From positions 1 to 29,228 of the IMG/VR virus record IMGVR_UViG_3300042731_008050: 29,228 nt of DNA. One strand, given 5' to 3'. A program made the position numbers and the translations under genes. Under the pieces are notes generated by a model. That model saw only the letters and a program-made list of their open reading frames with translations, did no database searches and had not been told where the DNA came from. This DNA comes from a virus. Positions 7,271-28,386 of the stretch are shown in pieces (within the stretch, counting starts at the first letter, position 1; every line of letters begins with the position of its first letter).

Positions 7271-7355
7271 AAATCCTCCTATTTGTAGTTTAAAGACATT
7301 TCAGTCTATAGAATAGAACAAGTCTAGTATTTTACAAATAGACTTGTTTTGGTGT
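7271..7355 (-). promoter_or_regulatory. Intercistronic hairpin + SD cassette (copy 4)
   Basis: A perfect 9-bp stem, ACAAGTCTA (plus-strand 7318-7326) with TAGACTTGT (7339-7347), followed on the minus strand by a second AGAC/GTCT hairpin with loop TGAAAT and then AAATAGGAGGATTT. Confidence 0.6.
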
Positions 7356-8006
7356 TTATAAGTCACATATGAACTCTAATTCTTTATTTTCCTTTACTTT
7401 GTATATTGCTTTAATTTCAAAGTCTTTACTTTTATTATTTAAGCTTATATCACAATTGTAAGTTTCTGAATAGTCATAGGCATCATTATAACAATAGAAC
7501 ATATCTGTAAAATCATTATTAGTGTTATTACAAATAAATTTGTACTTTTCAGCCGTTCTTATAGCAAATATGCAACAGTCACTACAATCATTATTACCTA
7601 CATAGAAGCTTATATTTTTAGTTTCTAAATCCTTTTGTAACCATTCGCTTATACAGTCACTTAGTTGACTTTCAATTTCAGTATAATGATTCCAATATTC
7701 TTCACTGTCAGGGTCTTGACAATCTTTGATATAAAACATGTTACATAGGTAGCGCGGCATGTATCGACCGTGATAACTATCTACTAGTATTTCTAATATG
7801 CCTTCTTGATATTCTTCGCCACAATCCCAGTCAATACTATCAATGTTTTTTATCAATTTACTTTTATGAAAGATATTATTTAATGTTGAGTCTTTAACAA
7901 GTTTGTCACATTCAGTGTTAATATCTTTCATTACTATATCAAGTAATTTTCCTGTAAAGTGTTTTTTAAGAATCTTTTCAATTTCATAGTTTGATAAATC
8001 ATGCAT
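7356..8006 (-). CDS. Acidic Cys-rich hypothetical protein, 216 aa
   Basis: The frame is open 39 bases further upstream, but the earlier ATG lies inside the cassette hairpin; ATG 8006-8004 has AGGAGGATTATATATT before it and gives MHDLSNYEIEKILKKHF. Near residue 90 is 'YMPRYLCNMFYI', then an acidic region with 'NDCSDCCIF' and 'FICNNTNNDF', ending 'ELEFICDL'. The seven or more Cys could reflect metal binding but show no classical spacing. No family recognised. It shares the hairpin-SD cassette with the genes around it. Confidence 0.75.
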   Translation of the reverse strand: MHDLSNYEIEKILKKHFTGKLLDIVMKDINTECDKLVKDSTLNNIFHKSKLIKNIDSIDWDCGEEYQEGILEILVDSYHGRYMPRYLCNMFYIKDCQDPDSEEYWNHYTEIESQLSDCISEWLQKDLETKNISFYVGNNDCSDCCIFAIRTAEKYKFICNNTNNDFTDMFYCYNDAYDYSETYNCDISLNNKSKDFEIKAIYKVKENKELEFICDL

Positions 8007-8073
8007 AATATATAATCCTCCTATTTTTTGAGATAGAGCAATCAAGGATGGTTAAACCCTTGATTACTAGGTG
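8007..8073 (-). promoter_or_regulatory. Intercistronic hairpin + SD cassette (copy 3)
   Basis: A perfect 8-bp stem, AATCAAGG (plus-strand 8040-8047) with CCTTGATT (8058-8065). Flanks on the minus strand are TAACACC at the upstream stop and TCTCAAAAAATAGGAGGATT before the ATG. Confidence 0.6.
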
Positions 8074-8364
8074 TTATACTATTACTGTATCTGTCATTAT
8101 GCTAAATGATACTACTTTTAAGTAATGCTCACTATATAAGTCTTTAGTTTTATTAACACAATTTTGACATATTTGCATAAGTTTAGCATGTAAAAAAGGT
8201 TTTCTAGTCGATATTTTTTCAAATGTAGTATCCATGAATTGTAATGTAGTTCTATTTGTTTTTATATTTGTTATTCCTACTAGTTCGCAGCCTAAATCCT
8301 TTTCTATAAATCTTATTGCATGAATGCCAGTAAATTGATTAGATAAAGTCAAATTAATAGTCAT
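8074..8364 (-). CDS. Hypothetical protein, 96 aa
   Basis: The ATG at 8364-8362 follows TAGGAGGATTTATATT and is chosen over an in-frame ATG 20 codons upstream, which sits in the hairpin cassette. The protein begins MTINLTLSNQFTGIHAIRF, continues with 'LVGITNIKTNRTTLQFMDTTFEKISTRK' (a beta-strand-rich piece) and ends hydrophobic (VVSFSIMTDTVIV). No family is recognised. Confidence 0.72.
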   Translation of the reverse strand: MTINLTLSNQFTGIHAIRFIEKDLGCELVGITNIKTNRTTLQFMDTTFEKISTRKPFLHAKLMQICQNCVNKTKDLYSEHYLKVVSFSIMTDTVIV

Positions 8365-8430
8365 AATATAAATCCTCCTATTTTTTGAGATAAAACAACT
8401 AAGAGCTGTTAAACTCTTAGTCATTAGGTG
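8365..8430 (-). promoter_or_regulatory. Intercistronic hairpin + SD cassette (copy 2)
   Basis: A perfect 8-bp stem, ACTAAGAG (plus-strand 8398-8405) with CTCTTAGT (8414-8421), loop 8 bases, flanked by TAACACC and TCTCAAAAAATAGGAGGATT on the minus strand. Confidence 0.6.
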
Positions 8431-8700
8431 TTATCTTTTTATTATGTAAAAATGTATACACTTACTAATAATATCGTGATTATAATAACTAAATGCACTT
8501 ATTTGTTGCTTAAACTCTGTTTCTTCCTGTGTATCGTTATCATATTTATTAATTAGTATTGGTATATTTACATGACTACCCGGGATATATTTATCACCTG
8601 TTAAAAATATGCCCTTATGATCGTTATATAGTTTTATAGCTGTTCTTTTTTGTATTCTTTTTAAAGTTTGCCCTTGATAACTAAATTCGTTATAATTCAT
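8431..8700 (-). CDS. Hypothetical protein, 89 aa, first gene of minus operon
   Basis: Starts MNYNEFSYQGQTLKRIQKRT after TAGGAGGATTTATTATT. The phrase 'AIKLYNDHKGIFLTGDKYIPG' reads as a small beta domain; the C terminus is aromatic (YYNHDIISKCIHFYIIKR). It is promoter-proximal: upstream on the minus strand there is only the long hairpin-rich leader. No family recognised. Confidence 0.72.
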   Translation of the reverse strand: MNYNEFSYQGQTLKRIQKRTAIKLYNDHKGIFLTGDKYIPGSHVNIPILINKYDNDTQEETEFKQQISAFSYYNHDIISKCIHFYIIKR

Positions 8701-9060
8701 AATAATAAATCCTCCTATTTTTTAAGATAATGGTATTAGGCGACTTGAACGCCTTCAAGCGAATTAACGCTATTGATAGCCCGGTTTTATCCTCCTATAT
8801 ACCTGATAGCTACTTAATAGATAGCTATTTAACACCAGTACGTTAAGCGTACCACGCTTTACTACTTAAATAGGAGGAGGATATTTTTATACTTATAGCG
8901 ACGTTCTGTATACACCAATTAAGTGTACCTAGTCATATCTGTTAATAGCAGTGTACGCTATTACGACCAAATGTAGTCAAGCATACTTTTATGTAACTAC
9001 TATTTACAAGTGCTATAGTATCTACCAGTATTCAATTTTCAAAGTACCAAATTTGTAAAT
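8701..9060 (-). other. Hairpin-rich, gene-free leader of the minus operon (contains cassette copy 1)
   Basis: About 300 bases without an ORF lie between the candidate promoter near 9015-9042 and the first gene at 8700. Nearest the gene is another cassette: AGGCG/CGCCT stem (plus-strand 8738-8742 with 8750-8754), then CTTAAAAAATAGGAGG on the minus strand. Further out are small perfect stems: AGCG/CGCT near 8760, ATAGCTA/TAGCTAT near 8808-8830, GTACG/CGTAC near 8839-8855, and AATAGC/GCTATT near 8944-8962. Two further GGAGG sequences stand without a start codon. I see a structured RNA leader or decayed cistrons, not a gene. Confidence 0.45.
9015..9042 (-). promoter_or_regulatory. Candidate promoter for the minus-strand operon
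   Basis: On the minus strand TTGAAA (plus 9037-9042) and TACTAT (plus 9015-9020) are separated by 16 bases. It is the best sigma-70-like pair upstream of the operon, but the spacing is one short and the -35 is imperfect. Confidence 0.35.
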
Positions 9061-11178: not shown

Positions 11179-11287
11179 TAAAAGGTTTGTAGCTTCCCGG
11201 GCTGATGCTGGGGCTGGGCTTACCTCTCCTTTAGTTAAAAGAATTGAAAAGATTAAGTGGAGAAAGAAAAATTTTAAAAGGTATTAA
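11159..11287 (+). CDS. Small basic protein, 42 aa
   Basis: ATG 11159 follows TAGGAAAGG. The peptide starts MKKVIFDKRFVASRADAGAG and ends with a strongly basic helix (KRIEKIKWRKKNFKRY). Its TAA shares one base with the ATG of the large terminase (TAATG), so the two are translationally coupled. The basic tail suggests nucleic-acid binding. No family recognised. Confidence 0.6.
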   Translation: MKKVIFDKRFVASRADAGAGLTSPLVKRIEKIKWRKKNFKRY

Positions 11288-12657
11288 TGGGTAAAGTAAT
11301 AAAATTAGATTTTCGTCCAAATAAAAAACAGAAATTGTTTTTTAAAGCTAAGACAAAATATATAGCTTATGGCGGAGCCCGTGGAGGCGGGAAATCGTGG
11401 GCGATGCGGACAAAAGCAGTTTTATTATGCTTAAGGTACAAAAGATTAAAGGTTCTTCTTTTAAGAAGAACTTTTCCAGAATTAGAAGCAAATCATATCA
11501 CACCTCTTCTTGTTATTTTGCATGATATAGCAGAATATATAGTTTCAAAAAAAGAATTTCGATTTCCTAATGGGAGTGTTATAAAGCTTGGTTACTGTAA
11601 AAATGAGAATGACGCGAATCAGTATCAAGGTCAGGAATATGATGTAATAATGTTTGAAGAAGCTACACTATTTACTGAGAGTCAATTAGTGTTTATTTCT
11701 ACATGCTTAAGAAATGTAAGGACAGATTTTGATACTAGAATTTATTATACATGTAATCCTGGTGGCCCAGCTCATCATTATATTAAAAGATTATTTATAG
11801 ATAGAGAATACGAAGGCGATGAGAATGCCGAAGAATATACTTTTATACCAGCTTTAATTTTTGATAATGAAATTTTAATGAAAAATGATTCATCTTATAT
11901 TAAAGTTTTGGATAATTTGCCTGAGGAATTACGTCGGGCTCATAGAGACGGGGACTGGGATGCGTTATCTGGTCAATACTTTAGAGAATTTAGAAGGAGT
12001 GTCCATGTAATAGATGATTTTGATATTCCTGACAGCTGGGTTAGATATTGTACTATAGATTATGGTTTAGATATGATGGCTGCGTTATGGATTGCTGTAG
12101 ACCCTATGGGTAATTGTTATGTTTATAGGGAGCATCATGAGCCTAATCTTATAATTTCAGTCGCAGCCGAAAAAATAAAATACTTGTCAAAAGGCGAAAA
12201 TATAAAAGCTTTTTATGTTCCTCCGGATTTATCTGCAAGTAGGCAGGAAACTGGTAAAAGTGCCTTGCAAATTTTTATAGAAAATGGTATAGTTGGATTA
12301 ATAACAAAAAATAGCAGAATAAGTGGATGGTTGTGTGTGAAGGAGTGTTTAGCTTGGTCTAAGAAAGCGGACCCGGTATTAAAGTTCTTTAAATCTTGTA
12401 AAGTTGCAATAAAACATATTCCGTTACTTCAGAGAGATGAAAAGAACCCTAATGATATAGCTCAAGAGCCACATGAATTTACGCATGTCGCGGATGCTAT
12501 AAGATATTTTTGTTCGACCTGGATTACAAAAACGAATATTCCTGAAGAGGAAGAACTCTCAGGTACATATTTCTACCCCGAATTACGAATGAAAGGGTAT
12601 TCAGATTCAGAGATACGAAAATTAGAGCTAAGCGGCGTTATTTCTGTTATTTCTTAA
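11287..12657 (+). CDS. terL: Terminase large subunit
   Basis: The packaging motor, 456 aa. The N-terminal ATPase shows Walker A GGARGGGKS (residues 29-37), Walker B DVIMFEEA (119-126) and a coupling motif TCNPGG (155-160). 'GDWD' (222-225) marks the link to the C-terminal RNase H-like nuclease, whose first acidic residue is in TIDYGLD (256-262) and whose last motif is HVADAIRYF near residue 400. This is the usual form for phages of Firmicutes. The start is coupled to the preceding basic ORF. In most such phages the portal gene follows at once; here 7 kb of glycan genes intervene. Confidence 0.95.
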   Translation: MGKVIKLDFRPNKKQKLFFKAKTKYIAYGGARGGGKSWAMRTKAVLLCLRYKRLKVLLLRRTFPELEANHITPLLVILHDIAEYIVSKKEFRFPNGSVIKLGYCKNENDANQYQGQEYDVIMFEEATLFTESQLVFISTCLRNVRTDFDTRIYYTCNPGGPAHHYIKRLFIDREYEGDENAEEYTFIPALIFDNEILMKNDSSYIKVLDNLPEELRRAHRDGDWDALSGQYFREFRRSVHVIDDFDIPDSWVRYCTIDYGLDMMAALWIAVDPMGNCYVYREHHEPNLIISVAAEKIKYLSKGENIKAFYVPPDLSASRQETGKSALQIFIENGIVGLITKNSRISGWLCVKECLAWSKKADPVLKFFKSCKVAIKHIPLLQRDEKNPNDIAQEPHEFTHVADAIRYFCSTWITKTNIPEEEELSGTYFYPELRMKGYSDSEIRKLELSGVISVIS

Positions 12658-12677: not shown

Positions 12678-13544
12678 ATGAGTCCAAAAGAGTTAAGAAA
12701 TATTGTATTTTTAGACAACTGTGCAAACTTTGATGTATCTAAATTATTTTTAAAGGCAGTTCCTTCAAAAGGTGATGATTCACAGGATACTGTAGAAGTT
12801 ATCTACACGCATTTTTCAAGAATTCACTATGATAAATTTCCAGAGCTTAAAGTGGTTTTATGCCCAGCTTCAGGTGTGTCTCATCTATATGAGGATAAGC
12901 CTGATAATGTTAAGGTTATATACCTTGATAATGAAGCAGAATTAATGGATAGAGCTGTGTCATCAGCTGAGTGGGGGATTACAGCAATGCTTAATCTTTT
13001 ACTAAAAAACCAGGAAAATCTTCTAGGAAAGAAAATAGGTTTTGTGGGTTTTAGCAGAATGGCTCAGCAGATTGCTAAAAGGCTAAATTGTTTTAACGTG
13101 GATATGAAATATTTCGACCCTGATACTAACTTACCTTTATACATTTCTGATAAGCTAGTAAATAAAGTATCTAAAGTTAAGCTTATTTATAATAATAGCG
13201 ATATTATATTTGTTGGTCTTCCAGATGATACTATTTATACAAATTTTATAGATGAGGTAGCTTTTGCGGAAATGAGCAGGGCTTATTTCATTAACTCATT
13301 TAGAGGACATTTAGTTGATGGTTTAGCTTTAGTTGATGCTTTTGATTCAGGTAATCTTAGAGGTTTAGCTATTGATGACATGTCTTCTTATGCTGTAAAT
13401 GTACAGAGTCAGCTTATAGTTTTAAATAAGTTACCACCTAATGTTATAGCATCACAGTATGAGGCGGGAAAAGGACTTCAGTCTAGAATTAATACGGACA
13501 TGTTAATTCTAGATAAATTACAAAAATTTATAGCAGCAGGTTAA
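12678..13544 (+). CDS. D-2-hydroxyacid dehydrogenase-like protein, catalytically degenerate paralog
   Basis: A 288-aa Rossmann protein of the D-isomer 2-hydroxyacid dehydrogenase family, with 'VSSAEW' (residues 94-99) and a nucleotide loop GFVGFSRMA (121-129). Compared with the next gene, its paralog, the second loop Gly is Ser. The catalytic Arg is kept (Arg209 in SFRGHLVDG), but the Glu position is Ser (AIDDMSSYA) and the His position is Tyr (ASQYEAGKG instead of TPHIAGKG). The N-terminal domain is shorter than in cellular members (about 310-330 aa in total). It is probably inactive as a dehydrogenase and may be a structural partner of the downstream paralog. Start has AAAAGGAGA. First gene of the module after terL. 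Confidence 0.8.
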   Translation: MSPKELRNIVFLDNCANFDVSKLFLKAVPSKGDDSQDTVEVIYTHFSRIHYDKFPELKVVLCPASGVSHLYEDKPDNVKVIYLDNEAELMDRAVSSAEWGITAMLNLLLKNQENLLGKKIGFVGFSRMAQQIAKRLNCFNVDMKYFDPDTNLPLYISDKLVNKVSKVKLIYNNSDIIFVGLPDDTIYTNFIDEVAFAEMSRAYFINSFRGHLVDGLALVDAFDSGNLRGLAIDDMSSYAVNVQSQLIVLNKLPPNVIASQYEAGKGLQSRINTDMLILDKLQKFIAAG

Positions 13545-13551
13545 AAATATT

Positions 13552-13575
13552 ACACTCTTTTTAAAAAGGGGGTGT
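13552..13575 (+). promoter_or_regulatory. Hairpin covering the ribosome site of the second dehydrogenase gene
   Basis: ACACTCTTTTT can pair, with several G-U pairs, with the A-rich/GGGGGTGT segment that contains the ribosome site of the gene at 13580. Weaker than the hairpins at 26371 and 27861, and may be chance. Confidence 0.3.
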
Positions 13576-13579
13576 TGAT

Positions 13580-14407
13580 ATGATTTTTTTAGATAATGCT
13601 ACTAATAGAGAGGATATAATAAGAGTAGCTAATAAACTAGGAAATTCTGAATGTGTGTATACACATTTTACTAAGTTAAATTATAAAAATTATGAAAATC
13701 TTAAATTTGTTTTATGTCCATGTACTGATATAAGACATTTAGAGCCTGGCTTAGCACCAGAGGATACTAAATTTATATATTTAACGGACAAGAATGTACT
13801 ATTTGAAAAGGTAGTATCCTCGGCTGAGTGGGTTGTATGGAGTTTGTTAAGATTACTAAAATACGATTTAAATGCTCAAGAAGAGCTGCATCACAAGTCT
13901 ATTGGTTTTGTGGGCTTTGGGCGCATGATGCAAAGAGTAGCGAAAATGTTATCGGGATGCAGGGTAACAATGTATTATTATGATAATGATGCGGAAAATT
14001 ATTATCTTGAAAGAGCGCAAAGATGTGCTGATGTAAATAATATATATTTAAATTGTGATATAGTTGTAATAGGTTTATCACAGAATAAGCAAACTATGAA
14101 TTTTGTAGATATAGATAGTTTTCAACTTATGAAAGAAGGTAAAAGGCCTTACTTTTTAAATAATTCCCGGTCTAGTATAGTAAATGGTGAGGCCCTGGTT
14201 AATGCAATAACGTCTAATGTACTTAGGGGATGTGCATTAGATGTTATTGAAGATTATACTAATGAGGTAAAGACGGATTTATATAGACTGGTGTATAAGA
14301 AAAATTTAATTATTACACCTCATATTGCAGGAAAAGGAATTCAATCTAGGATTAATACGGATAAAATAATATTAGATATATTTAAAAAGGAGGTGCTTCG
14401 TGAATAG
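13580..14407 (+). CDS. D-2-hydroxyacid dehydrogenase, intact active-site paralog
   Basis: A 275-aa paralog of the preceding gene. The NAD loop is GFVGFGRMM (109-117), and the catalytic triad is complete: Arg197 (NNSRSSIVNGEAL), Glu224 (ALDVIEDYTN) and His248 (TPHIAGKG). 'VVSSAEWVVWSLLRLL' (78-93) matches a subgroup that, from memory, often sits in bacterial surface-glycan and neuB loci. It likely interconverts an alpha-keto acid and a D-2-hydroxy acid with NAD(H). The substrate is unknown; a ketoacid sugar made by the neighbouring NeuB-like enzyme is an attractive guess. Start ATG after AGGGGGTG; the end overlaps the next gene by 8 bases. Confidence 0.85.
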   Translation: MIFLDNATNREDIIRVANKLGNSECVYTHFTKLNYKNYENLKFVLCPCTDIRHLEPGLAPEDTKFIYLTDKNVLFEKVVSSAEWVVWSLLRLLKYDLNAQEELHHKSIGFVGFGRMMQRVAKMLSGCRVTMYYYDNDAENYYLERAQRCADVNNIYLNCDIVVIGLSQNKQTMNFVDIDSFQLMKEGKRPYFLNNSRSSIVNGEALVNAITSNVLRGCALDVIEDYTNEVKTDLYRLVYKKNLIITPHIAGKGIQSRINTDKIILDIFKKEVLRE

Positions 14408-15254
14408 GAATAATGATACTTTAGTAATAGTGGGTAATTGCCAGTTTTTAAATGAGAGTATGCCTATTGAAGATGAGTTTGATTATTTTTTTGTAGGCCA
14501 TGCGCTGCATGATAAATGCTTAAAAGATAATAATTATTTAGATCAATTTAATAGGCAAAAAAGTGAAATTATGTTGTTAGAGATACATTCTAGAGAAAGC
14601 AGGGAAGAAAGATATCCAGGATATGTGGATTGGCTAAAAGGTATTAGAGTTAGTAAGTATATGCAGGAATATCATCCAGATTTAGTATTTAGTTATAAAT
14701 ATCCTAAGGCTGAAATAGAAGATTATTTAAGCTTTAAAGATATGGGTGTAAGTTTAGACTATTTTATGTCAAGTTTTGCTTATATGGTAGCCTGGGGTAT
14801 TTATAAGGGTTATCGTAAAATAATGTTATATGGTATAAATATGGTATTTTCAGATGATTATATCCAAAAGTATAATTTTGAATTCTGGCTTGGAATGGCT
14901 TTAGGTAGAGGTATAGGATTACAGCTTACAAAAGAATGTGATTTACTTAAATGTAAGTCTTACGGATATGAAGTAGATAATACATTAGGAGTGTATATGC
15001 AGAGAGCTATTAAAGGTACTCAGCTTAATATACTTAAGGACTTGAATTTTATAAGGCAAATAATAGGTAATCTAGAGGAGTTAGCTAAAAAGATTGATGG
15101 AGATTTAATTGATTTATTAGATAATAGATTAGATAATATAGATAATGCCATTTCTTCTTTATACATAGAAAATCCGAAATTTATGGAGCAGATATTAGAT
15201 CGGCATGGATTAGATATAGAACCCCAGGTCTTTGATCTAGGGGATAAAGATTGA
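14400..15254 (+). CDS. GT42/Maf-like putative glycosyltransferase, divergent paralog
   Basis: GTG 14400 with AAAGGAGGTG upstream gives 284 aa. The fold is suggested by comparison with the gene at 16142: both have a first strand (LVIVGNCQ, residues 8-15, against CCIVGFAPSW), a middle block (MSSFAYMVAWGIYKGYRKI, 123-141, against ISWMIALAICLGYEEI), then LYGINM (143-148, against VYGVDM) and a 'ECDLLKCKSYGYEVDN' end. The GxAPS/GxGPS nucleotide-sugar signature of the first loop is not present here, so it may be inactive or use another donor. The C-terminal 90 residues are helical. Placed in front of the neuB-like gene. Family assignment by motif only. Confidence 0.55.
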   Translation: MNRNNDTLVIVGNCQFLNESMPIEDEFDYFFVGHALHDKCLKDNNYLDQFNRQKSEIMLLEIHSRESREERYPGYVDWLKGIRVSKYMQEYHPDLVFSYKYPKAEIEDYLSFKDMGVSLDYFMSSFAYMVAWGIYKGYRKIMLYGINMVFSDDYIQKYNFEFWLGMALGRGIGLQLTKECDLLKCKSYGYEVDNTLGVYMQRAIKGTQLNILKDLNFIRQIIGNLEELAKKIDGDLIDLLDNRLDNIDNAISSLYIENPKFMEQILDRHGLDIEPQVFDLGDKD

Positions 15255-15303
15255 AAAAAGTACGCAGTTAATATAGATATCACATCCTTATTAAAGGAAA
15301 ATG

Positions 15304-15331
15304 ACAAGTAGGGAAATCCTGCCCTACTTGT
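15304..15331 (+). promoter_or_regulatory. 10-bp hairpin in the neuB leader
   Basis: ACAAGTAGGG (15304-15313) and CCCTACTTGT (15322-15331) pair perfectly around AAATCCTG in the 99-base gap before the NeuB-like gene, 10 bases ahead of its AGGAG. No T run follows, so it is more likely an RNA processing or stability element than a terminator. Confidence 0.5.
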
Positions 15332-15353
15332 CTAATAATAAGGAGTGAGTTTT

Positions 15354-16142
15354 TTGACAAAAATCATATTAGATGTAGCAAATAACCACTTGGGCCAAAG
15401 AGAAATATTGGACAAGTTAATAGGATATCCACCGTCTAATATGGTTGACTACATTAAGTTTCAACTCTATAATCCTGAAAGGCTTAATAAGGATTATCCA
15501 AATTATAGTTCATATAAGAAATTATGCGATAAGTACTATATCAATAAAGAAACTCTTATTCATATTTTTAAAGAGTTTAATTGGACTGCTCAAAAGAAGC
15601 CTATGTTTACTATTTTTTCTGAAGATAGAATTGAGTTTCTGCAAGAAGTTTTAGATGAGTTAGGTTATAGCCTTATCTGGCCTGTCGATTTTGCTTTGAA
15701 AATAGCCAGTCCAGATATGAGTAATTATAGGCTTATAGACAGTGTTTTAAGAGCTTTTCCAGAACTTTTAGTCATAATTTCTACAGGTATGCATTCAGAT
15801 AAAGAAATAGATGAGTGTATAAATAGGTTAAGTGTAGCAGGACATAGGAGTAGGGTTAAGTTTCTCCATTGTATTTCTGAATATCCAACCGATCCCGAAG
15901 ATATTGACTGGGGTAAAATAAAAGATATGGATGGGTTTTCTGATCATACTATAGGAATTGAGACAGCTAAAAAATGCATAGCTCTTAATGTTGAATATTT
16001 AGAGTTTCATTTTACATTATCAAAAGACCTTCCAGGCAAAGACCATACCATCTCAAAAGACATAAAAGAATTAGATAGAATTTTAAGATTTAAGTTGTCT
16101 TTAATGAATAATGAAAATTATAAAGTGAGGTGGTGTGGGTGA
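15354..16142 (+). CDS. neuB: NeuB-like nonulosonate (sialic acid) synthase, barrel domain only
   Basis: Condenses phosphoenolpyruvate with an N-acetylated hexosamine to a nine-carbon 2-keto acid. Family motifs are clear: ANNHLG (9-14), VDYIKFQ (31-37), STGM (143-146), HCISEYPT (172-179), FSDHTIG (195-201) and EFHFTLSKDLPGKDH (217-231). The His residues in SDHT and HFT match the metal ligands of NeuB. The protein is 262 aa against about 345 for cellular NeuB: the C-terminal SAF (antifreeze-like) domain is missing. TTG 15354 is preferred because AGGAG lies 8 bases before it; a GTG at 15345 overlaps that site. Its TGA overlaps the next ATG. Confidence 0.9.
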   Translation: MTKIILDVANNHLGQREILDKLIGYPPSNMVDYIKFQLYNPERLNKDYPNYSSYKKLCDKYYINKETLIHIFKEFNWTAQKKPMFTIFSEDRIEFLQEVLDELGYSLIWPVDFALKIASPDMSNYRLIDSVLRAFPELLVIISTGMHSDKEIDECINRLSVAGHRSRVKFLHCISEYPTDPEDIDWGKIKDMDGFSDHTIGIETAKKCIALNVEYLEFHFTLSKDLPGKDHTISKDIKELDRILRFKLSLMNNENYKVRWCG

Positions 16143-17491
16143 TGAAAAAAAATGATAATGGAAAAATTATTCCTAATAAAGCTAAAAGTGAAGAAATTAA
16201 AGAAACTAAGTCGGTAGATAAGATATTTAGTACTATGGGTAAAAGTACTAAAATGGATTTGCCTGTGAAAGGTAAATGTAGTACAGGGTTGAAGAGTGAA
16301 GAATTAGTACATAAAGAAAAGCAGGAAGGTAAAATAGTTCCCGGTTTTTCTAGAACTGAGTTTAATAAAAATGCATTAATAGAAGAGGGCGAGAGTAATA
16401 AAAAATTTGAGGACTTGAAGTTTATTAAGAAAAATAAGAGATGTTGTATAGTTGGATTTGCTCCTAGCTGGGATATAGCACCATACCAGGATAAAGATGT
16501 AGATTTTTGGGGGATTAATGAGCTTTATCTTAATCTTAAAAAAATTAAGCCGCAGCCTAAATTTTCTGCGTGGTTTGAAGTGCATGATATAGAGAAGTCT
16601 CCGTCTAAGCAAAAGCCTGAGCACCAAGAATTTTTAAAGATGTGTAAAATACCTATAATTACTCAAAAGCATTGGGATAAGTATCCTTCAACGATTGCTT
16701 ATCCGGTAGATTATGTTATTGAATTTTTTAATAAAAATTTTATAATAGATGCCAAAAATACTGGGTTTTCTGATTATTCTAATCAAATATCTTGGATGAT
16801 TGCATTAGCGATTTGTCTTGGATATGAAGAGATAATGGTTTATGGTGTAGATATGGCGCAAGATTCAGAATATCGTTTTCAAAGAGCTAGTTGTCAATTT
16901 TTCTTAGGATATGCGCTCGGTGCTAACATAAAAATAAGAATTCCGGCAGCTTGCGAACTTCTTAAAGCTGGGGCTTTATATGGTTTTGAGTCTGATAATA
17001 CAAATAGGTTCCGAAAGAAGGATAGGATTAAAAGTTGTTCTGAGAATCTTACACATCTTAAATGCAGAAATGCTGAGATTGGGTATTTTAAAGATTATTT
17101 GGATAAACAGTATAACAAAGATTCTTTGCTCATTGATTCTGAAATTGAACTTTTAGAAAAACAGATAACAGATTTAGACTCAATGATTACAGTTGCAGAT
17201 AATATAATTAATTTTATAAATACCATGCCAGAAACCTTGGCTGAAATTGATAAAGCAAAGGTTAAGCTTTTAAATGGTAATATTGCTGGAAGAGATAGAG
17301 CAAAAAAAGATATTGATAAAATTAAGTCTGATATAACTGCTCTTAAAAAGAAAAAAGAGAAGATAGGTGCAGATACTTATGTTAATCATAAGTTATTAGA
17401 TGAGGAGTTTGAAAACAACAAGCATTCTATTAGTAGTCTAGAAGGTTCAATTTATGAGTGTAAGCATGACTTGAATAATAATTTAGTGTAA
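16142..17491 (+). CDS. Phage GT42/Maf-like putative nonulosonate transferase with coiled-coil tail
   Basis: 449 aa from an ATG coupled to the neuB stop (TGATG). Residues 1-95 are a Lys/Glu-rich, probably disordered extension. The catalytic-like domain has GFAPSW (105-110), WGINELY (123-129), ISWMIALAICLGYEEI (216-231) and YGVDM (234-238). The order GxxPS, N-E/Q-xY, S-x(5)-A-x(3)-LGY-x-EI and GxDM parallels CstI-type sialyltransferases (GT42) and Maf/DUF115 flagellin nonulosonate transferases. From about 295 to 445 it is a long coiled coil. Similar phage proteins are usually called hypothetical. Its place between neuB and neuC makes a CMP-nonulosonate donor plausible. Assignment is inference from motifs plus context. 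Confidence 0.65.
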   Translation: MKKNDNGKIIPNKAKSEEIKETKSVDKIFSTMGKSTKMDLPVKGKCSTGLKSEELVHKEKQEGKIVPGFSRTEFNKNALIEEGESNKKFEDLKFIKKNKRCCIVGFAPSWDIAPYQDKDVDFWGINELYLNLKKIKPQPKFSAWFEVHDIEKSPSKQKPEHQEFLKMCKIPIITQKHWDKYPSTIAYPVDYVIEFFNKNFIIDAKNTGFSDYSNQISWMIALAICLGYEEIMVYGVDMAQDSEYRFQRASCQFFLGYALGANIKIRIPAACELLKAGALYGFESDNTNRFRKKDRIKSCSENLTHLKCRNAEIGYFKDYLDKQYNKDSLLIDSEIELLEKQITDLDSMITVADNIINFINTMPETLAEIDKAKVKLLNGNIAGRDRAKKDIDKIKSDITALKKKKEKIGADTYVNHKLLDEEFENNKHSISSLEGSIYECKHDLNNNLV

Positions 17492-17492
17492 T

Positions 17493-18533
17493 ATGGTTCT
17501 GGTTTTCATCGGCTCCAGGGCCAATTATGGTAGGCTAAAAGCAGTAATAGCAGAATTAATAGGACAAAATATAGAATTTGGTATTGTACTTGGATCTTAT
17601 GATATTCCTGAAGAATATCAGAAATATGTAGTATTTAAAGCCGACAATCTTCTATATAAGGATACTACATTTAACATGGTAAATTCTATGTCTTTAGTGG
17701 CAATGAGTATAACAAATTATTTATCAAATTTAAGTAGATTACCTAAACTTGCTATTGTGCATGGTGACAGATTTGAAAATCTGGGTTTTGCTATAGCATG
17801 TAGTTATAATAATATTAAGTTATTGCATACTGAAGGTGGGGAAACTTCTGGAAATATTGATAATAAGGTCAGATATGCTATTACTGCTTTAGCTGATATA
17901 CACTGTGTAACCAGTGAGAATGCCGGAGAGCATCTAATTAAAGCAGGAATTGATGAGAATAAAGTACATGTAGTTGGCTCACCAGCTATTGATGAGGTTA
18001 AGAGAATGAATTTACAGACTTTAAAGCATCTACCTGATATAATCGCAGTTTTATATAATCCATGTCAGGAAGATGACTTTGATGAATTTTTTAAAGCTAT
18101 TTTAAAGCTTAGTCATAAAAATAACATAGTCTGGATTAACCCAAATGTTGATCCAGGTTATAAGATGATATGTAAGCAGGTGCATAGAAGAAAGCAAATT
18201 GAATTTATGAAAAATTTAGTGCCACAAGAATATATTAAGGTATTAAATATGTGCAAAATGCTAATAGGCAATACCTCTTCAGGGATAAAAGAGGGTGCAT
18301 ATATTGGTATACCATATATAATGGTGGGTAGGAGGCAAGCGTTAAGAGAGACTGCGAGTAATGTTATAGTTACATTAGGAAAATGCGATGCTGATGCAAT
18401 ACAATATTATGCTGATTTTATAGATGGGATGCAGTCTCCAGATAAAGGTGGTCGAATTAAGTATGATGGTACTTTTGGCTGGGGTGACGCGGCAGAAAAG
18501 ATAGTAAAGATAGTAAAGGAGGAACTTAAATGA
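17493..18533 (+). CDS. neuC: NeuC-like UDP-N-acetylglucosamine 2-epimerase (hydrolysing)
   Basis: 346 aa of the NeuC/WecB GT-B epimerase family. It removes UDP and inverts C2 of UDP-GlcNAc (giving ManNAc) or of a related UDP-sugar. Motifs: GSRANYGRLK (7-16), VHGDRFENLG (89-98), HTEGGETSGNIDNKVRYA (112-129), GSPAID (162-167) and GNTSSGIKEGA (259-269). The 'EGGE-SG' signature is typical of the NeuC rather than the WecB side. It begins 1 base after the preceding stop without a strong ribosome site, so translation is probably coupled. The last bases overlap the NeuA-like start (ATGA). Supplies the amino sugar for the NeuB-like enzyme. Confidence 0.9.
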   Translation: MVLVFIGSRANYGRLKAVIAELIGQNIEFGIVLGSYDIPEEYQKYVVFKADNLLYKDTTFNMVNSMSLVAMSITNYLSNLSRLPKLAIVHGDRFENLGFAIACSYNNIKLLHTEGGETSGNIDNKVRYAITALADIHCVTSENAGEHLIKAGIDENKVHVVGSPAIDEVKRMNLQTLKHLPDIIAVLYNPCQEDDFDEFFKAILKLSHKNNIVWINPNVDPGYKMICKQVHRRKQIEFMKNLVPQEYIKVLNMCKMLIGNTSSGIKEGAYIGIPYIMVGRRQALRETASNVIVTLGKCDADAIQYYADFIDGMQSPDKGGRIKYDGTFGWGDAAEKIVKIVKEELK

Positions 18534-19237
18534 TAGCTTTAATTCCATTTAGAAAAGGGAGTAAAAGAGTTCCGGAAAAAAATATCAAAATGTTTAATAG
18601 AAATGGAGCAGCACGTACTTTATTTATGCATACAGTGCTTCAAGCTCTAAAATGTGGAAATATTTTTGAATCTGTAGTGGTATCTACAGATTATAGCCTA
18701 GCATTTTTGTTTAGTATAGATGAGTATGTTATGGATAAATGTGTTATACATGTAAGAAATGAGGTAGCTGATGACCAGCCTGCTTCTCATTATATAAAAG
18801 AATTTATTGATTCGCAGAAGTTCGGGAATGCAAGTGATATTTGTTTATTGCAGCCTACATGTCCTTTGAGAAGTCATATAGATATATATGGAGCAGTAGA
18901 TAAGTATTATACGCAAAAAGATGAAAAGCCAACTTTAGTTTCAGTTACTAAAGTTGGTCCAAATAAAAAGTTATATGTTAATGGTATCACAGGCTTTGGA
19001 AGTATTAGTTCTGATAATATATTAGCCTGTGATGAAGAAGGTAAAAAAGCTGAAGAAATTTATGTGAGAAATAGCAGTATTTATATTTTTAATGTTGGAT
19101 ATTTTAGAAAAAATAATACTATCTTTGATAATAAACCAAATTATTATCAAATGCCAGTATCTAGAAGTATAGACATAAATACAGAAGAAGATTTTAAGAT
19201 GGCAGAGGCATTGTCTAAGGTGTGTGATATAGAGTGA
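18530..19237 (+). CDS. neuA: NeuA-like CMP-nonulosonate (acylneuraminate) cytidylyltransferase
   Basis: 235 aa. Activates a nonulosonic acid with CTP to the CMP-sugar. The N terminus ALIPFRKGSKRVPEKNI (3-19) is the family nucleotide loop (R-x-G-S-K-R-x-P-x-K-N). LLQPTCPLR (106-114), YVRNSSIYIF and SIDINTEEDF are the other conserved segments, including the metal-binding Asp region. Length matches single-domain NeuA/PseF/LegF. Its ATG overlaps the neuC stop, with GGAGG upstream, and its TGA overlaps the next gene's GTG. With neuC and neuB it completes the minimal three-step route to a CMP-nonulosonate. KdsB-type CMP-Kdo synthetase is less likely given the neighbours. Confidence 0.92.
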   Translation: MIALIPFRKGSKRVPEKNIKMFNRNGAARTLFMHTVLQALKCGNIFESVVVSTDYSLAFLFSIDEYVMDKCVIHVRNEVADDQPASHYIKEFIDSQKFGNASDICLLQPTCPLRSHIDIYGAVDKYYTQKDEKPTLVSVTKVGPNKKLYVNGITGFGSISSDNILACDEEGKKAEEIYVRNSSIYIFNVGYFRKNNTIFDNKPNYYQMPVSRSIDINTEEDFKMAEALSKVCDIE

Positions 19238-19443
19238 ATGATTTTTGGCTAGGTGTAATATGTACAGTATTATTTTTATTAATAAGTTTTGATGTTATTT
19301 TATGGAGCTTAGTAATAAAGAATTTAAAAAAATCAGAAGAGTTAGATGAACAACTTAAAAAGTTACAGGATAATGTTCCGCAGAGTGGAATAGATAAATA
19401 TAGAGATGAGGATGGATTATTAAGTGGGAAAAGAAAGACCTGA
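19234..19443 (+). CDS. Small membrane-anchored protein, 69 aa
   Basis: GTG 19234 overlaps the neuA stop (GTGA). The product begins MNDFWLGVICTVLFLLISFD, a single N-terminal membrane helix (about residues 5-27), followed by a heptad-like helix (KNLKKSEELDEQLKKLQDN) and a polar tail. It resembles small spanin-like or envelope-anchored phage proteins in shape only. Its place between the glycan genes and the Com-like gene suggests that it belongs to the module, perhaps as a membrane tether, which is inference. Confidence 0.65.
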   Translation: MNDFWLGVICTVLFLLISFDVILWSLVIKNLKKSEELDEQLKKLQDNVPQSGIDKYRDEDGLLSGKRKT

Positions 19444-19633
19444 ATTAGCATCCGATATAAGATGTCCGCGATGTAAGCGGATGATAGGCGATGATATAAA
19501 AGGGAATATTTATATTGTTCACTCAACTGATTTTGTTTCAAAGAGATTTTCAAAAGTAGATTTTATTTTAGAGGTAAAGTGCTCTAAGTGTAGAATTTAT
19601 AATACAATTTTTGCGGGAGGTGTGGATATATAG
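19424..19633 (+). CDS. Com-like zinc-ribbon protein, 69 aa
   Basis: GTG 19424 lies inside the end of the preceding gene with GAGGATG upstream. The product has IRCPRCKRMIGDD (12-24), and near residue 50 LEVKCSKCRIYNTI: two C-x2-C knuckles in the pattern of the phage Mu Com family (IRCxxC ... LEIKCPRC). In Mu, Com is a zinc finger RNA-binding activator of mom translation; Com homologs also occur alone in phage genomes, often near the portal. Here the intervening segment is longer than in Mu Com. An RNA-binding role is inferred from family. Confidence 0.6.
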   Translation: MGKERPELASDIRCPRCKRMIGDDIKGNIYIVHSTDFVSKRFSKVDFILEVKCSKCRIYNTIFAGGVDI

Positions 19634-19636
19634 GCC

Positions 19637-21703
19637 ATGAAGACTAGCAGTTATGTAAAAGCTGCGAAAGATATGGTCCGTAGAGAAAGCCAGGATGGTC
19701 AAAAAGGCCAGGAGAGCTTCGACTTAAAAAGAAAAGAGTTAATGACACAAGATGAAATGAAAAGAATTGATGATTATTTATCAACTTTATATCATAATGA
19801 AGGTTCAATGTCTTCTTATTATACAGAATGGGAGGATATTGAAGAAAAATTTTCTAATTGTCAGCCTGAAGAGTCAGACATGCCCAATACTCGTGCAAAT
19901 ATTATGGTAAGTACGATAGAAGGTATGATTACTCAAACGGTTGATAAGCAAATAAATACGGTTACTCAGGGTGTGGGTCCTGAAGATGAGCATTTTGCTA
20001 ATAGTGCTCGTGTAGGATTAAATTGGATTTTTAAGAGCAATAGTATAACAGATAGGGCAGCTACTTTTATTCGCAGGCGTTTTAAGTTCGGGGTAGCTTG
20101 GTTTAAAGTGGTTTTTGACGATGAATATGCTGGGGGTTTTGGTTTATCTAAAATTCAGGCAGTTCCTATCGATAGAATTTATATTGATGGAAAGATTACA
20201 GATGATGATAGAATACAAGAAGCCGAATATATTTGTGAGATTATTGATTGTTCCAGGTCTTATGCTGAAGTAGTATATGGCAAGGAAAAAGCTTCGGCTA
20301 TACAGTATGGTTATAATGAATTCCATTCGTCTGAGGCTTTTGATAAAGATTTTCCTATTCCAGATGGAGATAGGTTGTGGGCTTTGATTCAGTGGTGGAG
20401 TAGGCAGGACGGAAAGCTTCGGCTTGAAGAATTTTCGGCTTGTGGGGTTCTTCTTTATGATAGCCATAAAGAAGGAAATAGGAGAGATAATCAGCGGCAA
20501 ATGGCTGAAAGTATTAAGTCATATTATAAGTATGTATCAGATGAGTACCCATATTTTTTAACTGTTAAGTACCCTAAGGAAGGGCATTTATACGGATTTG
20601 GAGATGGATGGTTACTTCTTTCTATACAAAAACTTGTAAATGAGTTGTATGATAAGATTAGAATTCAGGCTAGGCCTAATCTTGTTATGGTAGATATATT
20701 TTCAGATGTTGATGTAAAATCTTTTGATGATAATAGTTATTCACCTACACCTTTTGATGGTGCGCGGCTTAATAACAGGCCCCCAGTTATTAGTGTTCCC
20801 TGGGGCACTGTGAACAAAGACATGTATGAGTTATTAGAAAGAATACGAGTGGAGATGCAGAGGATTGTCCGCTATTCAGATTTGATGATGGGGCAGTCTA
20901 AGTCGGCTGATACAGCTACAGAAGCAGCTATACAACAACAGCAAGGTAATTCTCATATTGACTGGGAAAAAGGAGTATTAGAGCGTATTCTTGCTAAAGT
21001 GGGTAAATACTGTATTAATTTAATGATGGAGTTTTCAAAAACAGGTAAGTCACTTCGTATAGGGGAAGACAATGAAGAGTATAAGTGGGTAGATTTCAGG
21101 AATTTTGCAAGTATTCCTGTACAAAAACCAGCTACGAAGGGCTTTCAGGATAAGTATAAAGATGAAAATCCAGGGGTTCCGATTCCTAAATATGAAGGTG
21201 TAGAGGAAGATGGAAAGCCAGTAACTAAGAATTTAGACCTTGACCTTACTATAAATGTTGGTTCAGGATTACCTAAAAATCCAGCATTTTTATGGTCAAT
21301 GATAGAGAAGTTATCACAGATGTTTGTTGTAGATACAGATGAGGAGCCCCCTGTTCCTAAGCCAGCAATAAATTTTAAAGAGATTAGAAAATTCTTAAAA
21401 GACTATTTGGGAATACCAATTAAGTCTGATGAACAAATGAAAAAGTTTGTTGAAGAATTTAAGAAAATGCAGCTTCAAATGATGAAAAAGAAAATGGGTC
21501 AGTCAGGTATGAGTCCAGGTGGATTTACAGGGGATCAAGCCACTACACCGATGCCTGGTAATGCTGAGGTTATGGGCCCAGGGGGACCTGGTGGAAATCA
21601 GCCAGCAGAGCAGCCTGGAACAGCAGGGATGACAGTATCAGGAGGTGCACCGGCTGACCAGATGAATAATCCAGCAAATGTGGGAGGATTAAGGAATGGA
21701 TAG
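19637..21703 (+). CDS. Portal protein
   Basis: 688 aa, the size of large P22-type portals, directly upstream of head genes and in the normal late position. The N-terminal third is charged and helical, followed by mixed regions such as 'KFGVAWFKVVFDDEYAGGF' and 'AVPIDRIYIDGKITDDDR', typical of the portal wing/stem. The segment 'SADTATEAAIQQQQGN' with following long helix fits the stem/crown. The last 80 residues are Gly/Pro/Gln-rich and flexible (PGGPGGNQPAEQPGTAGM). The start ATG lies 16 bases after GGGAGGTG, a long spacing. Its end overlaps the next gene by 8 bases. The family is judged from length, composition and context. Confidence 0.85.
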   Translation: MKTSSYVKAAKDMVRRESQDGQKGQESFDLKRKELMTQDEMKRIDDYLSTLYHNEGSMSSYYTEWEDIEEKFSNCQPEESDMPNTRANIMVSTIEGMITQTVDKQINTVTQGVGPEDEHFANSARVGLNWIFKSNSITDRAATFIRRRFKFGVAWFKVVFDDEYAGGFGLSKIQAVPIDRIYIDGKITDDDRIQEAEYICEIIDCSRSYAEVVYGKEKASAIQYGYNEFHSSEAFDKDFPIPDGDRLWALIQWWSRQDGKLRLEEFSACGVLLYDSHKEGNRRDNQRQMAESIKSYYKYVSDEYPYFLTVKYPKEGHLYGFGDGWLLLSIQKLVNELYDKIRIQARPNLVMVDIFSDVDVKSFDDNSYSPTPFDGARLNNRPPVISVPWGTVNKDMYELLERIRVEMQRIVRYSDLMMGQSKSADTATEAAIQQQQGNSHIDWEKGVLERILAKVGKYCINLMMEFSKTGKSLRIGEDNEEYKWVDFRNFASIPVQKPATKGFQDKYKDENPGVPIPKYEGVEEDGKPVTKNLDLDLTINVGSGLPKNPAFLWSMIEKLSQMFVVDTDEEPPVPKPAINFKEIRKFLKDYLGIPIKSDEQMKKFVEEFKKMQLQMMKKKMGQSGMSPGGFTGDQATTPMPGNAEVMGPGGPGGNQPAEQPGTAGMTVSGGAPADQMNNPANVGGLRNG

Positions 21704-26930: not shown

Positions 26931-27827
26931 ATGCCATATACATTGAGTGATGATATCAGCAGGATGTTACTTGCTGGTCAAAAAGAAATATTTACAAGAA
27001 ATTTTGATAGTTACCCTTTAGAATATACCAAGTTTACGACTAAAAAGTCTTCTTCTAAAGAGACTGAGACTTATGATAGCATGGGTAACTTAAAAGCTGC
27101 ATCACAAAAAATCGAAGGTGATGCAATAGAATACGGTAAGATAAGGCAGGCTTACCAGACCAGGATAACTAATAAAACCTGGGCGAACGGGTATGAATTT
27201 ACCATGGAGGCCATGAAGTACGACTTGTATGGTTGTATAAAGTCAGCTAAGGCTAAAGAACTTTCAAGAACAATGAGAGAATTAGAAGAAGCCAGGGCGA
27301 TATATTGGATAGATAATGCGGCTACGATTAATTTAGCTGATGGTGTTCCATTAGCTTCTAACTCGAAGCCACTTAGAGATTCAGCAGCTACTAATGATAC
27401 TTTAGCTACAGCTTCTAGTTTAGCTGATCCTGATAATCATAAAACCATGATAAATATGTTTTATTCATTTAAGAATCATGCTGGTGGACCGATGAAAGCG
27501 AGGCCTGATAGAGGGCTTACGCATTTTGTTAATCAGCTTACAATTGAAGAAGTTTATAGGAGTATGAATAAGGCTAATGAAATGAGTAATACTAAAAATA
27601 CACTGCCAAATATCTCATGGTCTTACAGTACTTATATGAGTTCTCAAACTGCATGGATGATGTGGGACCCTTCATTTGAGCACATATTATTCCAGTGGTT
27701 TATGAAAACTGATTTTGATAATGACTATGATAAAAGGTATACAAAAAATATGTATTTTAATTCTATAGCGATGTATCAGACTGGGTGTTTACCTAACATT
27801 GGTATAGTTTATAATGCAGGAGTATAA
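26931..27827 (+). CDS. Major capsid protein
   Basis: ATG 26931 with AAGGAGGGGTAAT. The 298-aa protein follows scaffold and decoration genes. N-terminal helices with 'MLLAGQKEIFTRNFDSYPLE', a charged stretch 'TKKSSSKETETYDSMG', 'RITNKTWANGYEFTMEAMKY' and the later 'LTHFVNQLTIEEVYRS' are in the style of HK97-fold coat proteins, some of the Mu gpT-like type. No protease gene is present in the window, so maturation by cleavage is not supported. It would form the icosahedral shell. Assignment is by position, length and character. Confidence 0.8.
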   Translation: MPYTLSDDISRMLLAGQKEIFTRNFDSYPLEYTKFTTKKSSSKETETYDSMGNLKAASQKIEGDAIEYGKIRQAYQTRITNKTWANGYEFTMEAMKYDLYGCIKSAKAKELSRTMRELEEARAIYWIDNAATINLADGVPLASNSKPLRDSAATNDTLATASSLADPDNHKTMINMFYSFKNHAGGPMKARPDRGLTHFVNQLTIEEVYRSMNKANEMSNTKNTLPNISWSYSTYMSSQTAWMMWDPSFEHILFQWFMKTDFDNDYDKRYTKNMYFNSIAMYQTGCLPNIGIVYNAGV

Positions 27828-27885: not shown

Positions 27886-28386
27886 ATGCCTAAAAATATA
27901 TTAGGTACAACTTTGTCTACTACATATCATGGTAGTTCAGATTATAAGCTTGTAGGTACAGATGGTTCTTTGTATTTAAGACATAAATTTGAGACCTTAA
28001 CTTGGTCAAGTTCTGGTTTAGATGTGTCTACTATGAGTCCATATGGTATAACAAGAATTATATCTACAGGCGGTAATCCATCTACTTCACCAGCTACTGT
28101 TACGCTTGCTGCACCTGTAGTAGGCTGCGAAAAGACAATTATTCAGGAAACAACAGCTGCTTATGCTAACACTCTGGACATTGACCTTGGAGCTAATGTT
28201 AGGGTGCAAGGTACTTCAGATGCCAGATATATTGCGCTTTCATCTTTAGCTGAAGACCATCAAAGTATTACTTTAATAGGTCTTACTACATCTAAGTGGG
28301 GTGTTAAGTCAGTTGATTCTACGCTTGGCTGTTTTGGCATAGCTACGGGTATAAGAGCTACTACGGCTGCTAGGTCGTCTGGATAA
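27886..28386 (+). CDS. Head/surface structural protein, 166 aa
   Basis: ATG 27886 gives MPKNILGTTLSTTYHGSSDY. It is Thr/Ser/Gly-rich with strands ('SLYLRHKFETLTWSSSGLDV', 'TVTLAAPVVGCEKTIIQ') and a 'LDIDLGANVRVQGTSDARYI' segment, resembling virion surface proteins such as head fibres or decoration proteins. It shares MP- start and general style with the 168-aa decoration-like gene. Ends before a terminator. No named family. Confidence 0.65.
   Translation: MPKNILGTTLSTTYHGSSDYKLVGTDGSLYLRHKFETLTWSSSGLDVSTMSPYGITRIISTGGNPSTSPATVTLAAPVVGCEKTIIQETTAAYANTLDIDLGANVRVQGTSDARYIALSSLAEDHQSITLIGLTTSKWGVKSVDSTLGCFGIATGIRATTAARSSG

Follow-up and report, generated by a model that had tools for sequence, protein, structure and literature searches.

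Why would a phage carry what appears to be a route to a sialic-type sugar between its large terminase and its portal? The locus lies in the window, by which we mean the whole stretch analysed, the 29,228 nucleotides of viral record IMGVR_UViG_3300042731_008050. A reading made from the sequence alone had described positions 12678-19633 as a coupled, co-oriented set of genes running from terL to the portal, and the open reading frames (ORFs) and family models confirm that description. The features are listed below, with the related contig L005 for comparison.

11287..12657, plus strand: terL, large terminase, left cassette border (Terminase_6N 2.5e-12, Terminase_3 1.1e-11; 86% identical in L005)
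12678..13544, plus strand: dhA, 2-hydroxyacid-dehydrogenase-like paralog without the catalytic His (2-Hacid_dh_C 4.8e-20, 72 bits, cut-off 25.1)
13580..14407, plus strand: dhB, 2-hydroxyacid-dehydrogenase-like (2-Hacid_dh_C 3.3e-29, 102 bits, cut-off 25.1; alignment)
14400..15254, plus strand: gtA, second protein of predicted GT42 fold (AlphaFold2 model, pLDDT 73; GT42 rows in VIA-align)
15284..15344, plus strand: predicted structured RNA leader of NeuB (folding z -5.7; z -5.3 in L005)
15345..16142, plus strand: NeuB-like nonulosonate synthase, TIM barrel only, without SAF domain (PF03102 7.7e-33; TIGR03569 1.1e-32)
16130..17491, plus strand: gtB, putative transferase of GT42/Maf/MptE fold with a long C-terminal helical hairpin (predicted-structure comparison)
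17493..18533, plus strand: NeuC-like hydrolysing UDP-HexNAc 2-epimerase (TIGR03568 1.8e-63; human GNE 4zht 3.8e-36)
18530..19237, plus strand: NeuA-like CMP-nonulosonate synthetase (CTP_transf_3 2.3e-8; TIGR03584 5e-20)
19234..19443, plus strand: small ORF with a hydrophobic N-terminus, probably one membrane helix (sequence; 32% identical in L005)
19424..19633, plus strand: small Cys-rich, zinc-ribbon-like ORF (weak zinc-ribbon matches; 61% identical in L005)
19637..21703, plus strand: portal, right cassette border (phrog_156 1.3e-9)
26931..27827, plus strand: major capsid protein, MCP (phrog_371 1.5e-8; lineage family, 33 contigs)
27886..28386, plus strand: Ser/Thr-rich (28%) protein directly 3′ of the capsid gene, candidate acceptor (S+T share, conserved family)

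The cassette thus reads terL, dhA, dhB, gtA, NeuB, gtB, NeuC, NeuA, two small ORFs and portal, all on the plus strand, and adjacent ORFs overlap or lie less than 40 bp apart, with the exception of a 90-bp structured leader in front of NeuB. The identity of terL comes from two Pfam models, and those of the portal and the small terminase from PHROGs. The SAF-less NeuB, the dhA lacking its His and the two small pre-portal ORFs are additions to the earlier gene list.

Family models also uphold the complete NeuC-NeuB-NeuA route that the sequence-only reading had proposed. The window NeuC scores 155.2 bits against Epimerase_2 (cut-off 30.6) and 214.6 bits against TIGR03568, which is below the equivalog cut-off of 235.9; the NeuC of another lineage member, L043, lies above it at 330.2 bits. 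NeuA reaches 34.5 bits against CTP_transf_3 (cut-off 22.6), has PseF as its top NCBIfam match, and aligns along its length with the CMP-Neu5Ac synthetases 6ifd (9.1e-13) and 1eyr (5e-12), while NeuB reaches 114.4 bits against PF03102 (cut-off 22.1). This NeuB, whose probable start is a TTG at 15354, ends at 265 amino acids, and the C-terminal SAF/antifreeze-like domain, an Arg of which contacts the substrate in known NeuBs, is absent from the window and from all lineage members (234-278 amino acids). A SAF domain concealed in the next gene was considered and rejected, the N-terminus of gtB being of low confidence in the model and having no domain match. Residues H201, H222, K38, K119 and S122 are invariant in an alignment of 10 lineage members; by their counterparts in NmNeuB, we take the two His to be metal ligands and the Lys and Ser to bind substrate. 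Among chains of known structure, the phage NeuB profile matches 6ncs best by sequence (1.4e-16); this is a similarly short chain of 290 amino acids that is named sialic acid synthetase and has no phage link, and the phage NeuBs are shorter still. In the leader, an 11-bp hairpin is predicted to sit within a stem in which the AAGGAG ribosome-binding site is paired, and the stem changes between the window and L005 are compensatory.

Both dehydrogenase-like paralogs exceed the 2-Hacid_dh_C cut-off, as the first reading would have it. In the catalytic stretch of dhA, TPHIAG is replaced by SQYEAG (window) or SQYKAG (L005), and from its sequence dhA is probably a pseudo-enzyme partner. In contrast, dhB retains the NAD motif, the Arg and the His, with a Tyr at the Glu position of the Arg-Glu-His triad. 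A dhB-type dehydrogenase is conserved in the lineage, upstream of NeuB in its contigs; it is superfluous to a simple NeuC-NeuB-NeuA pathway, and may tailor the sugar.

What would transfer such a sugar? The two putative nonulosonate transferases of the earlier reading both model as a fold common to GT42 sialyltransferases, Maf and MptE. The gtB Rossmann domain is modelled at a pLDDT of about 90 and matches the GT42 chains 2p2v (Z 10.9) and 1ro8 (Z 10.5), Maf 5mu5 (Z 10.9) and MptE 8sd5 (Z 10.4); the fold is therefore not exclusive to GT42. Foldseek alone was swamped by the gtB coiled coil, and it was the VIA-align comparison that proved informative. The top VIA-align rows of gtA are GT42 (9c08 Z 10.2, 2p2v Z 10.1, 1ro7 Z 9.8), with no Pfam or NCBIfam family match and nothing under 0.001 by Foldseek alone. 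By sequence, the nearest solved chains to gtB are mostly GT42 sialyltransferases, in weak matches, and it scores 18.1 bits against PF01973, the MptE-like core of Maf/DUF115 flagellin glycosyltransferases, below the cut-off of 34.6. Besides the fold, the likeness to GT42 enzymes (CstI, CstII, PmST) extends to an aligned stretch, A-x-A-I-x-L-G-Y-K-E-I-x-x-x-G-x-D, and to the Tyr of a subsequent S-x-Y-x-F stretch. Of the catalytic Tyr pair of GT42, gtB Y248 aligns with a CstII Tyr, in a weak sequence alignment. Unlike GT42, neither window protein matches PF06002 up to an E of 1 (3 of 18 transferase-family members do, at best 4.9e-4), the gtB alignment has no clear equivalent of the general-base His, and the phage family has a conserved WFE-x-H motif and an almost phage-only spread (188 IMG/VR loci and a single GTDB contig, from a MAG labelled Dehalococcoidia that falls outside the lineage of the window).

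Is the cassette a passing acquisition? L005 has the same cassette genes in the same order, its cassette proteins being 50-76% identical, and the long genes give dN/dS values of 0.15-0.29 between the two, indicating purifying selection; gtA is at its cassette place in both. Chance or misassembly can be ruled out, as divergent contigs repeat the order and L005 has it complete. NeuB, NeuC, NeuA and the transferase occur together with a portal in 16 lineage contigs, the phage of the window included; one lineage member (L135) has no cassette at this place and another (L053) lacks NeuC. Cassette distances correlate with portal distances (r 0.68-0.74, p 0.0005) and more weakly with those of the MCP (r 0.12-0.41, partly from cut MCP genes), and the lineage NeuBs form one clade with support of 100/100. 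Recent cargo insertion is ruled out because of the portal correlation and the single clade. The position between terL and portal thus stands, and the one-off insertion of the first reading does not: judging from the contigs, the NeuC-NeuB-NeuA and transferase set is a core module of an uncultured phage lineage.

Beyond the lineage, NeuB is found in 13 of 15 transferase-family contigs of at least 28 kb, and CTP_transf_3 in 12 of the 15, compared with NeuB in 3 of 50,697 GenBank phage records, a background obtained by single-protein tblastn, which is less sensitive than the Pfam model applied to the 15 contigs. Contig L041 has, in the midst of its head genes, two such transferases as well as PseB (above cut-off), PseC and PseG-like genes. 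Narrow scans, in which viral contigs were sought by NeuB or gtB pairs, retrieved just the two closest contigs. Such a set had been called rare, which holds for isolated phages only, because several further phage lineages combine the transferase family with NeuB; in uncultured lineages it is fixed.

Which molecule, then, would receive the sugar? The protein at 27886-28386 has the highest S+T share of the 33 window ORFs, and the lineage conserves its family; a sub-lineage has the transferase gene relocated, in the order MCP, Ser/Thr-rich protein, transferase. At 48 other transferase loci the upstream gene has an S+T content of at least 20% in 69%, compared with 26% of other ORFs, and the downstream gene is also enriched (51%). 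Three phages with related capsids and no such transferase have 17-26% S+T in the corresponding gene. Ser/Thr richness is a weak clue to an acceptor. From these gene neighbourhoods, the acceptor is possibly the Ser/Thr-rich protein adjoining the capsid protein.

We consider it fairly probable, from the genes, that the cassette is a phage-encoded nonulosonate glycosylation module, whose CMP-nonulosonate would be used in the cytoplasm to O-glycosylate a head protein. From a UDP-sugar of the host, NeuC would release ManNAc or a similar 2-epimerised HexNAc; NeuB would join this product to PEP, NeuA would convert the result to a CMP-nonulosonate, and gtB (with gtA in the sub-clade of the window and L005) would move the sugar onto Ser or Thr of a virion head protein. 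Transfer would take place in the host cytoplasm during assembly, most likely to the Ser/Thr-rich protein by the capsid protein, and the particle might gain shielding, adsorption or stability. Neu5Ac is the simplest candidate for the sugar, and a legionaminic type made from host precursors is also possible. The sequences show the enzyme families, the conservation of their active sites and of the module, and its co-occurrence with the transferase. The families and the linkage of the genes are well supported; the exact sugar, acceptor, particle benefit and dehydrogenase role we infer. The SAF-less NeuB, the missing PF06002 match and clear GT42 His, the lineage members without cassette or NeuC, and the unneeded dehydrogenase count against such a module.

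The first reading had offered a virion component, DNA or the host surface as target; the tie to virion assembly stands, and a head protein fares better than the other two. It is unlikely, and still the foremost alternative, that host glycans or wall polymers receive the CMP-nonulosonate, which would mask receptors and so guard against superinfection or against progeny being lost to debris, the place between terL and portal being a convenient late transcription slot. Phage sugar genes often alter serotype, the L045 cassette includes a secreted LPXTG-like protein, and one small ORF of the window has a putative membrane helix. However, the moved transferase adjoins the capsid gene, the module runs in the same direction as the head genes, which in L041 have the pathway genes interspersed among them, and a head protein is preferred because no flippase or polymerase, nor any lipid-carrier transferase, is seen in the cassettes. 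Less probable again is that the enzymes yield some other 3-deoxy-ulosonic compound or a soluble metabolite, be it legionaminic, Kdn-like or a reduced sugar acid, and that the dehydrogenase step defines it, gtA and gtB then being MptE-like pyrophosphokinases or structural Rossmann proteins; the dehydrogenase in the conserved core, the truncated NeuB, the PseF match of NeuA and the MptE-like proteins among the top fold and Pfam matches of gtB would suit this, but the transferase co-occurs with NeuB and NeuA in unrelated phages and the gtA structure list is headed by GT42 chains. A very improbable reading, and one set aside, is that phage DNA or a hypermodified base receives the sugar, in the way that T4-like and other phages carry glucosyl and other glycans on theirs: virus-encoded glycosyltransferases do attach diverse glycans to DNA (Pyle 2024, as summarised in PMC12619734), but a head protein is the better target because 10 lineage contigs of 28-53 kb hold no PF00303 thymidylate-synthase/hydroxymethylase relative, the cassette lies among head rather than replication genes, and the closest folds are sialyltransferases, Maf and MptE.

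The proposed head glycosylation has its nearest likeness in the bacterial O-glycosylation of flagellin by Maf and FlmG, in which a cytoplasmic CMP-nonulosonate is put directly on Ser or Thr of a self-assembling surface protein; Maf enzymes are described as O-linking Neu5Ac or Kdo to these residues (PMC7591256, citing Khairnar 2020), and gtB is predicted to share their fold. The phage system differs in being encoded between terL and portal, in its short phage-specific transferases and SAF-less NeuB, and in its presumed head-protein acceptor. Mycobacteriophage virion glycosylation uses other transferase families. In those phages, capsid and tail-tube proteins of the particle bear glycans (Freeman 2023, as related in PMC12619734 and PMC12691614, whose accounts report no dedicated nonulosonate pathway). 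A search of open-access papers brought up no account of nonulosonate synthesis by phages, nor of particles decorated in this manner. For the host, an MCP profile search of GTDB contigs gave no relative, and the AGGAGG sites and a tail lysin are only a hint of a Gram-positive; a promoter scan gave sites no more numerous than in shuffles.

If the head glycosylation is real, this would be, as far as we found, the first phage group shown to equip its particle with a sialic-type sugar of its own making. More tentatively, with slightly less than even confidence, we suggest that a widespread and so far undescribed phage class makes several nonulosonic acids (NeuBCA type here, PseBCG type in L041), and that sialyltransferase-like enzymes of a phage-specific family O-link them to decoration proteins of the head that are rich in Ser and Thr, giving free virions sialic-type coats. 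The members of the transferase family would be small enzymes of the cytosol, possibly able to O-link nonulosonates to proteins directly, and the Ser/Thr-rich product encoded next to the capsid gene is a concrete candidate acceptor. Sialic-type coats affect the charge of a particle, its stability and its adsorption, as well as how lectins and antibodies recognise it in animal hosts, and therefore a virion bearing one would matter for phage ecology and therapy.

Between the terminase gene terL and the portal gene of the window, an IMG/VR virus record of 29,228 bases, the ORF map places seven long and two small ORFs, all co-oriented. The borders and the long genes are as follows.

11287-12657: terL, left border of the cassette
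12678-13544, + strand: dhA, first 2-hydroxyacid-dehydrogenase-like paralog
13580-14407, + strand: dhB, second such paralog
14400-15254, + strand: gtA, sialyltransferase-like protein
15345-16142, + strand: NeuB
16130-17491, + strand: gtB, sialyltransferase-like protein
17493-18533, + strand: NeuC
18530-19237, + strand: NeuA
19637-21703: portal, right border of the cassette

Family models match NeuB to PF03102 (7.7e-33), NeuC to Epimerase_2 (2.7e-45) and TIGR03568 (1.8e-63) and NeuA to CTP_transf_3 (2.3e-8), and identify two proteins as 2-hydroxyacid-dehydrogenase-like, confirming the gene set that the sequence-only reading had described between terL and portal; its statement that no dehydratase or aminotransferase is present was also borne out within the cassette. 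In the dehydrogenase alignment, the first paralog has lost the catalytic His and the second keeps it, while the catalytic Glu position is Tyr in most members.

Among ten aligned NeuBs of the lineage, that is, the uncultured phages with this terL-portal cassette, H201, H222, K38, K119 and S122 are invariant, presumably binding metal, PEP and sugar. All ten lack the C-terminal SAF domain, and the best solved relative, 6ncs, is likewise short (290 aa). Human GNE is the nearest solved structure to the window's NeuC, and one lineage NeuC scores 330 bits against an equivalog cut-off of 235.9. NeuC and NeuB favour a Neu5Ac-type route. The window's NeuA aligns with CMP-Neu5Ac synthetases over its full length; its top NCBIfam model is PseF, scoring below cut-off, so a Neu5Ac-type product is tentative.

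In a close relative, L005, whose terL is 86% identical, all cassette genes are present in unchanged order; the long ones give dN/dS of 0.15-0.29 and pN/pS of 0.30-0.48 against the window, and terL and portal give lower values. Further contigs came from later scans and from a search with a DNA pattern that combined two motifs of gtB, bringing to 16, the window's phage counted, those that carry the full set; since some are near-identical pairs (3300035138 / 3300042731), distinct phages number slightly fewer.

Contigs carrying NeuB, NeuC, NeuA, a transferase and portal
3300036975_000123 (window's own phage), 3300035211_000214, 3300035138_000093, 3300042731_004814
3300031364_000003, 3300007352_000007, 3300029258_001862, 3300035670_000332
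3300044849_000022, 3300031651_000010, 3300035670_000339, 3300025010_000093
3300002733_000105, 3300027819_000163, 3300038436_000004, 3300001605_001868 (portal and major capsid protein, MCP, broken)

Other lineage contigs are cut, yet consistent with the cassette. Across the whole lineage, a nonulosonate gene stands upstream of portal in every contig extending at least about 0.5 kb there except L135, and L053 is missing NeuC. Distances between cassette proteins track those between portals (Mantel r 0.68-0.74, p 0.0005) and lineage NeuBs form a single clade (support 100/100); the module is therefore old and retained. Its variable neighbours, methyltransferases, an MT-A70 protein and an NAD-binding protein, may tailor the sugar. 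Near NeuA, L029, L036 and L024 encode an NAD-binding protein of 235-244 aa with an IGGHCV motif as in UDP-sugar 6-dehydrogenases; that of L036 has no Pfam match. In L135, a recoded lineage member, the portal ORF (4901-6838) is open only if TGA is Trp, and large repeated proteins occupy the place of the cassette upstream of it. The MCP of L153 (8901-10642) is interrupted by about 860 bases containing an ORF. Related ORFs, possibly mobile endonucleases, directly follow MCP in L138 and L148, and L153 has them downstream as well.

The roughly 60 bases 5' of NeuB (15284-15344) fold into an 11-bp hairpin inside a stem covering the ribosome-binding site (z -5.7), and in L005 both stems are preserved with compensatory changes (z -5.3). 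This leader, which has no Rfam match, is a candidate regulatory RNA and suggests translational control of NeuB. Elsewhere in the window (6237-8775), a leader some 70 bases long recurs at no fewer than four small genes of the - strand. It consists of a hairpin and then AAAAAATAGGAGGATT, with several stem pairs altered on both sides.

Turning to the transferases (TRANSFERASES), gtB has few sequence matches to solved chains, mostly GT42 sialyltransferases and weak (E 0.05 and up). In its AlphaFold2 model, residues 95-290 or so form a Rossmann domain predicted with confidence, and there is also a long hairpin of helices; by VIA-align the Rossmann domain resembles Cst-I (Z 10.9), CstII (Z 10.5), Maf (Z 10.9, with a large rmsd) and MptE/HPPK (Z 10.4). 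The gtA model is poorer (pLDDT 73) and places GT42 enzymes on top (Z 9-10), MptE among them, followed by eukaryotic GT29 sialyltransferases (Z 6.4-6.9). Pfam CST-I matches 3 of 18 family members (best 4.9e-4) and MptE-like 7 of 18 (best 0.0024), which places the gtB family between the two; it is named GT42-like, not GT42. With 188 relatives in IMG/VR, one weakly matching GenBank phage record and a single GTDB contig, it is nearly phage-only.

Outside the lineage, 15 transferase-bearing contigs of at least 28 kb lack its terL-portal cassette (one, G005, shares the MCP); 13 carry a PF03102 NeuB and 12 a CTP_transf_3 protein, whereas tblastn searches with two different NeuBs match only 3 of 50,697 GenBank phage records, a very large contrast for NeuB, inexact since the search methods differ. 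L041 (3300033141_002294) belongs to a second phage lineage; interleaved with its head genes are two GT42-like transferases, PseB, PseC and a PseG-like protein, along with a formyltransferase and a long NeuB. Its PseB scores above the NCBIfam cut-off. A 473-aa protein in L071 (2409-3830), adjoining a long NeuB, resembles a NeuA-PseG-like fusion.

In one sub-lineage the transferase has moved out of the cassette to a place behind MCP, while NeuB, NeuC and NeuA remain upstream of portal. Immediately following MCP is a gene whose family occurs in the lineage members examined and at two other loci (L084, L102); it has 23-30% Ser+Thr, ranking first to third within its own contig. In other lineages (48 dereplicated loci), the gene preceding the transferase, drawn from several unrelated families, reaches at least 20% Ser+Thr in 69% of cases, compared with 26% for other ORFs (permutation p 5e-5). 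This clue is tempered because downstream neighbours are enriched too (51%) and post-MCP genes of three transferase-less phages with related capsids reach 17-26%. The L045 cassette includes a secreted protein (oriented 11254-11691) whose end is LPXTG-like, which hints at a Gram-positive host.

PMC7591256, citing Khairnar 2020, reports that Maf enzymes O-link Neu5Ac or Kdo to flagellin Ser/Thr, and PMC12619734 cites Freeman 2023 for the finding that phage capsids can carry glycans. Of the targets first proposed, a virion component, DNA or the host surface, the first fits best, as a head protein that would be O-nonulosonylated in the cytosol. Among the rival readings (ALTERNATIVES), modification of the host surface is possible, but no export genes were seen in the cassettes and the relocated transferase adjoins capsid genes; the enzymes may also make another product, or gtB may do something other than transfer a sugar. 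Transfer of the sugar onto DNA loses ground, as the expected companion enzyme, a PF00303 relative, is absent from 10 lineage contigs. We found no description of phage nonulosonate synthesis in open-access papers. Glycosylation of virions is already known, and so is O-transfer of nonulosonates in the cytosol; cytosolic O-nonulosonylation of a head protein would unite both in one phage module, a union that is, as far as we found, new.
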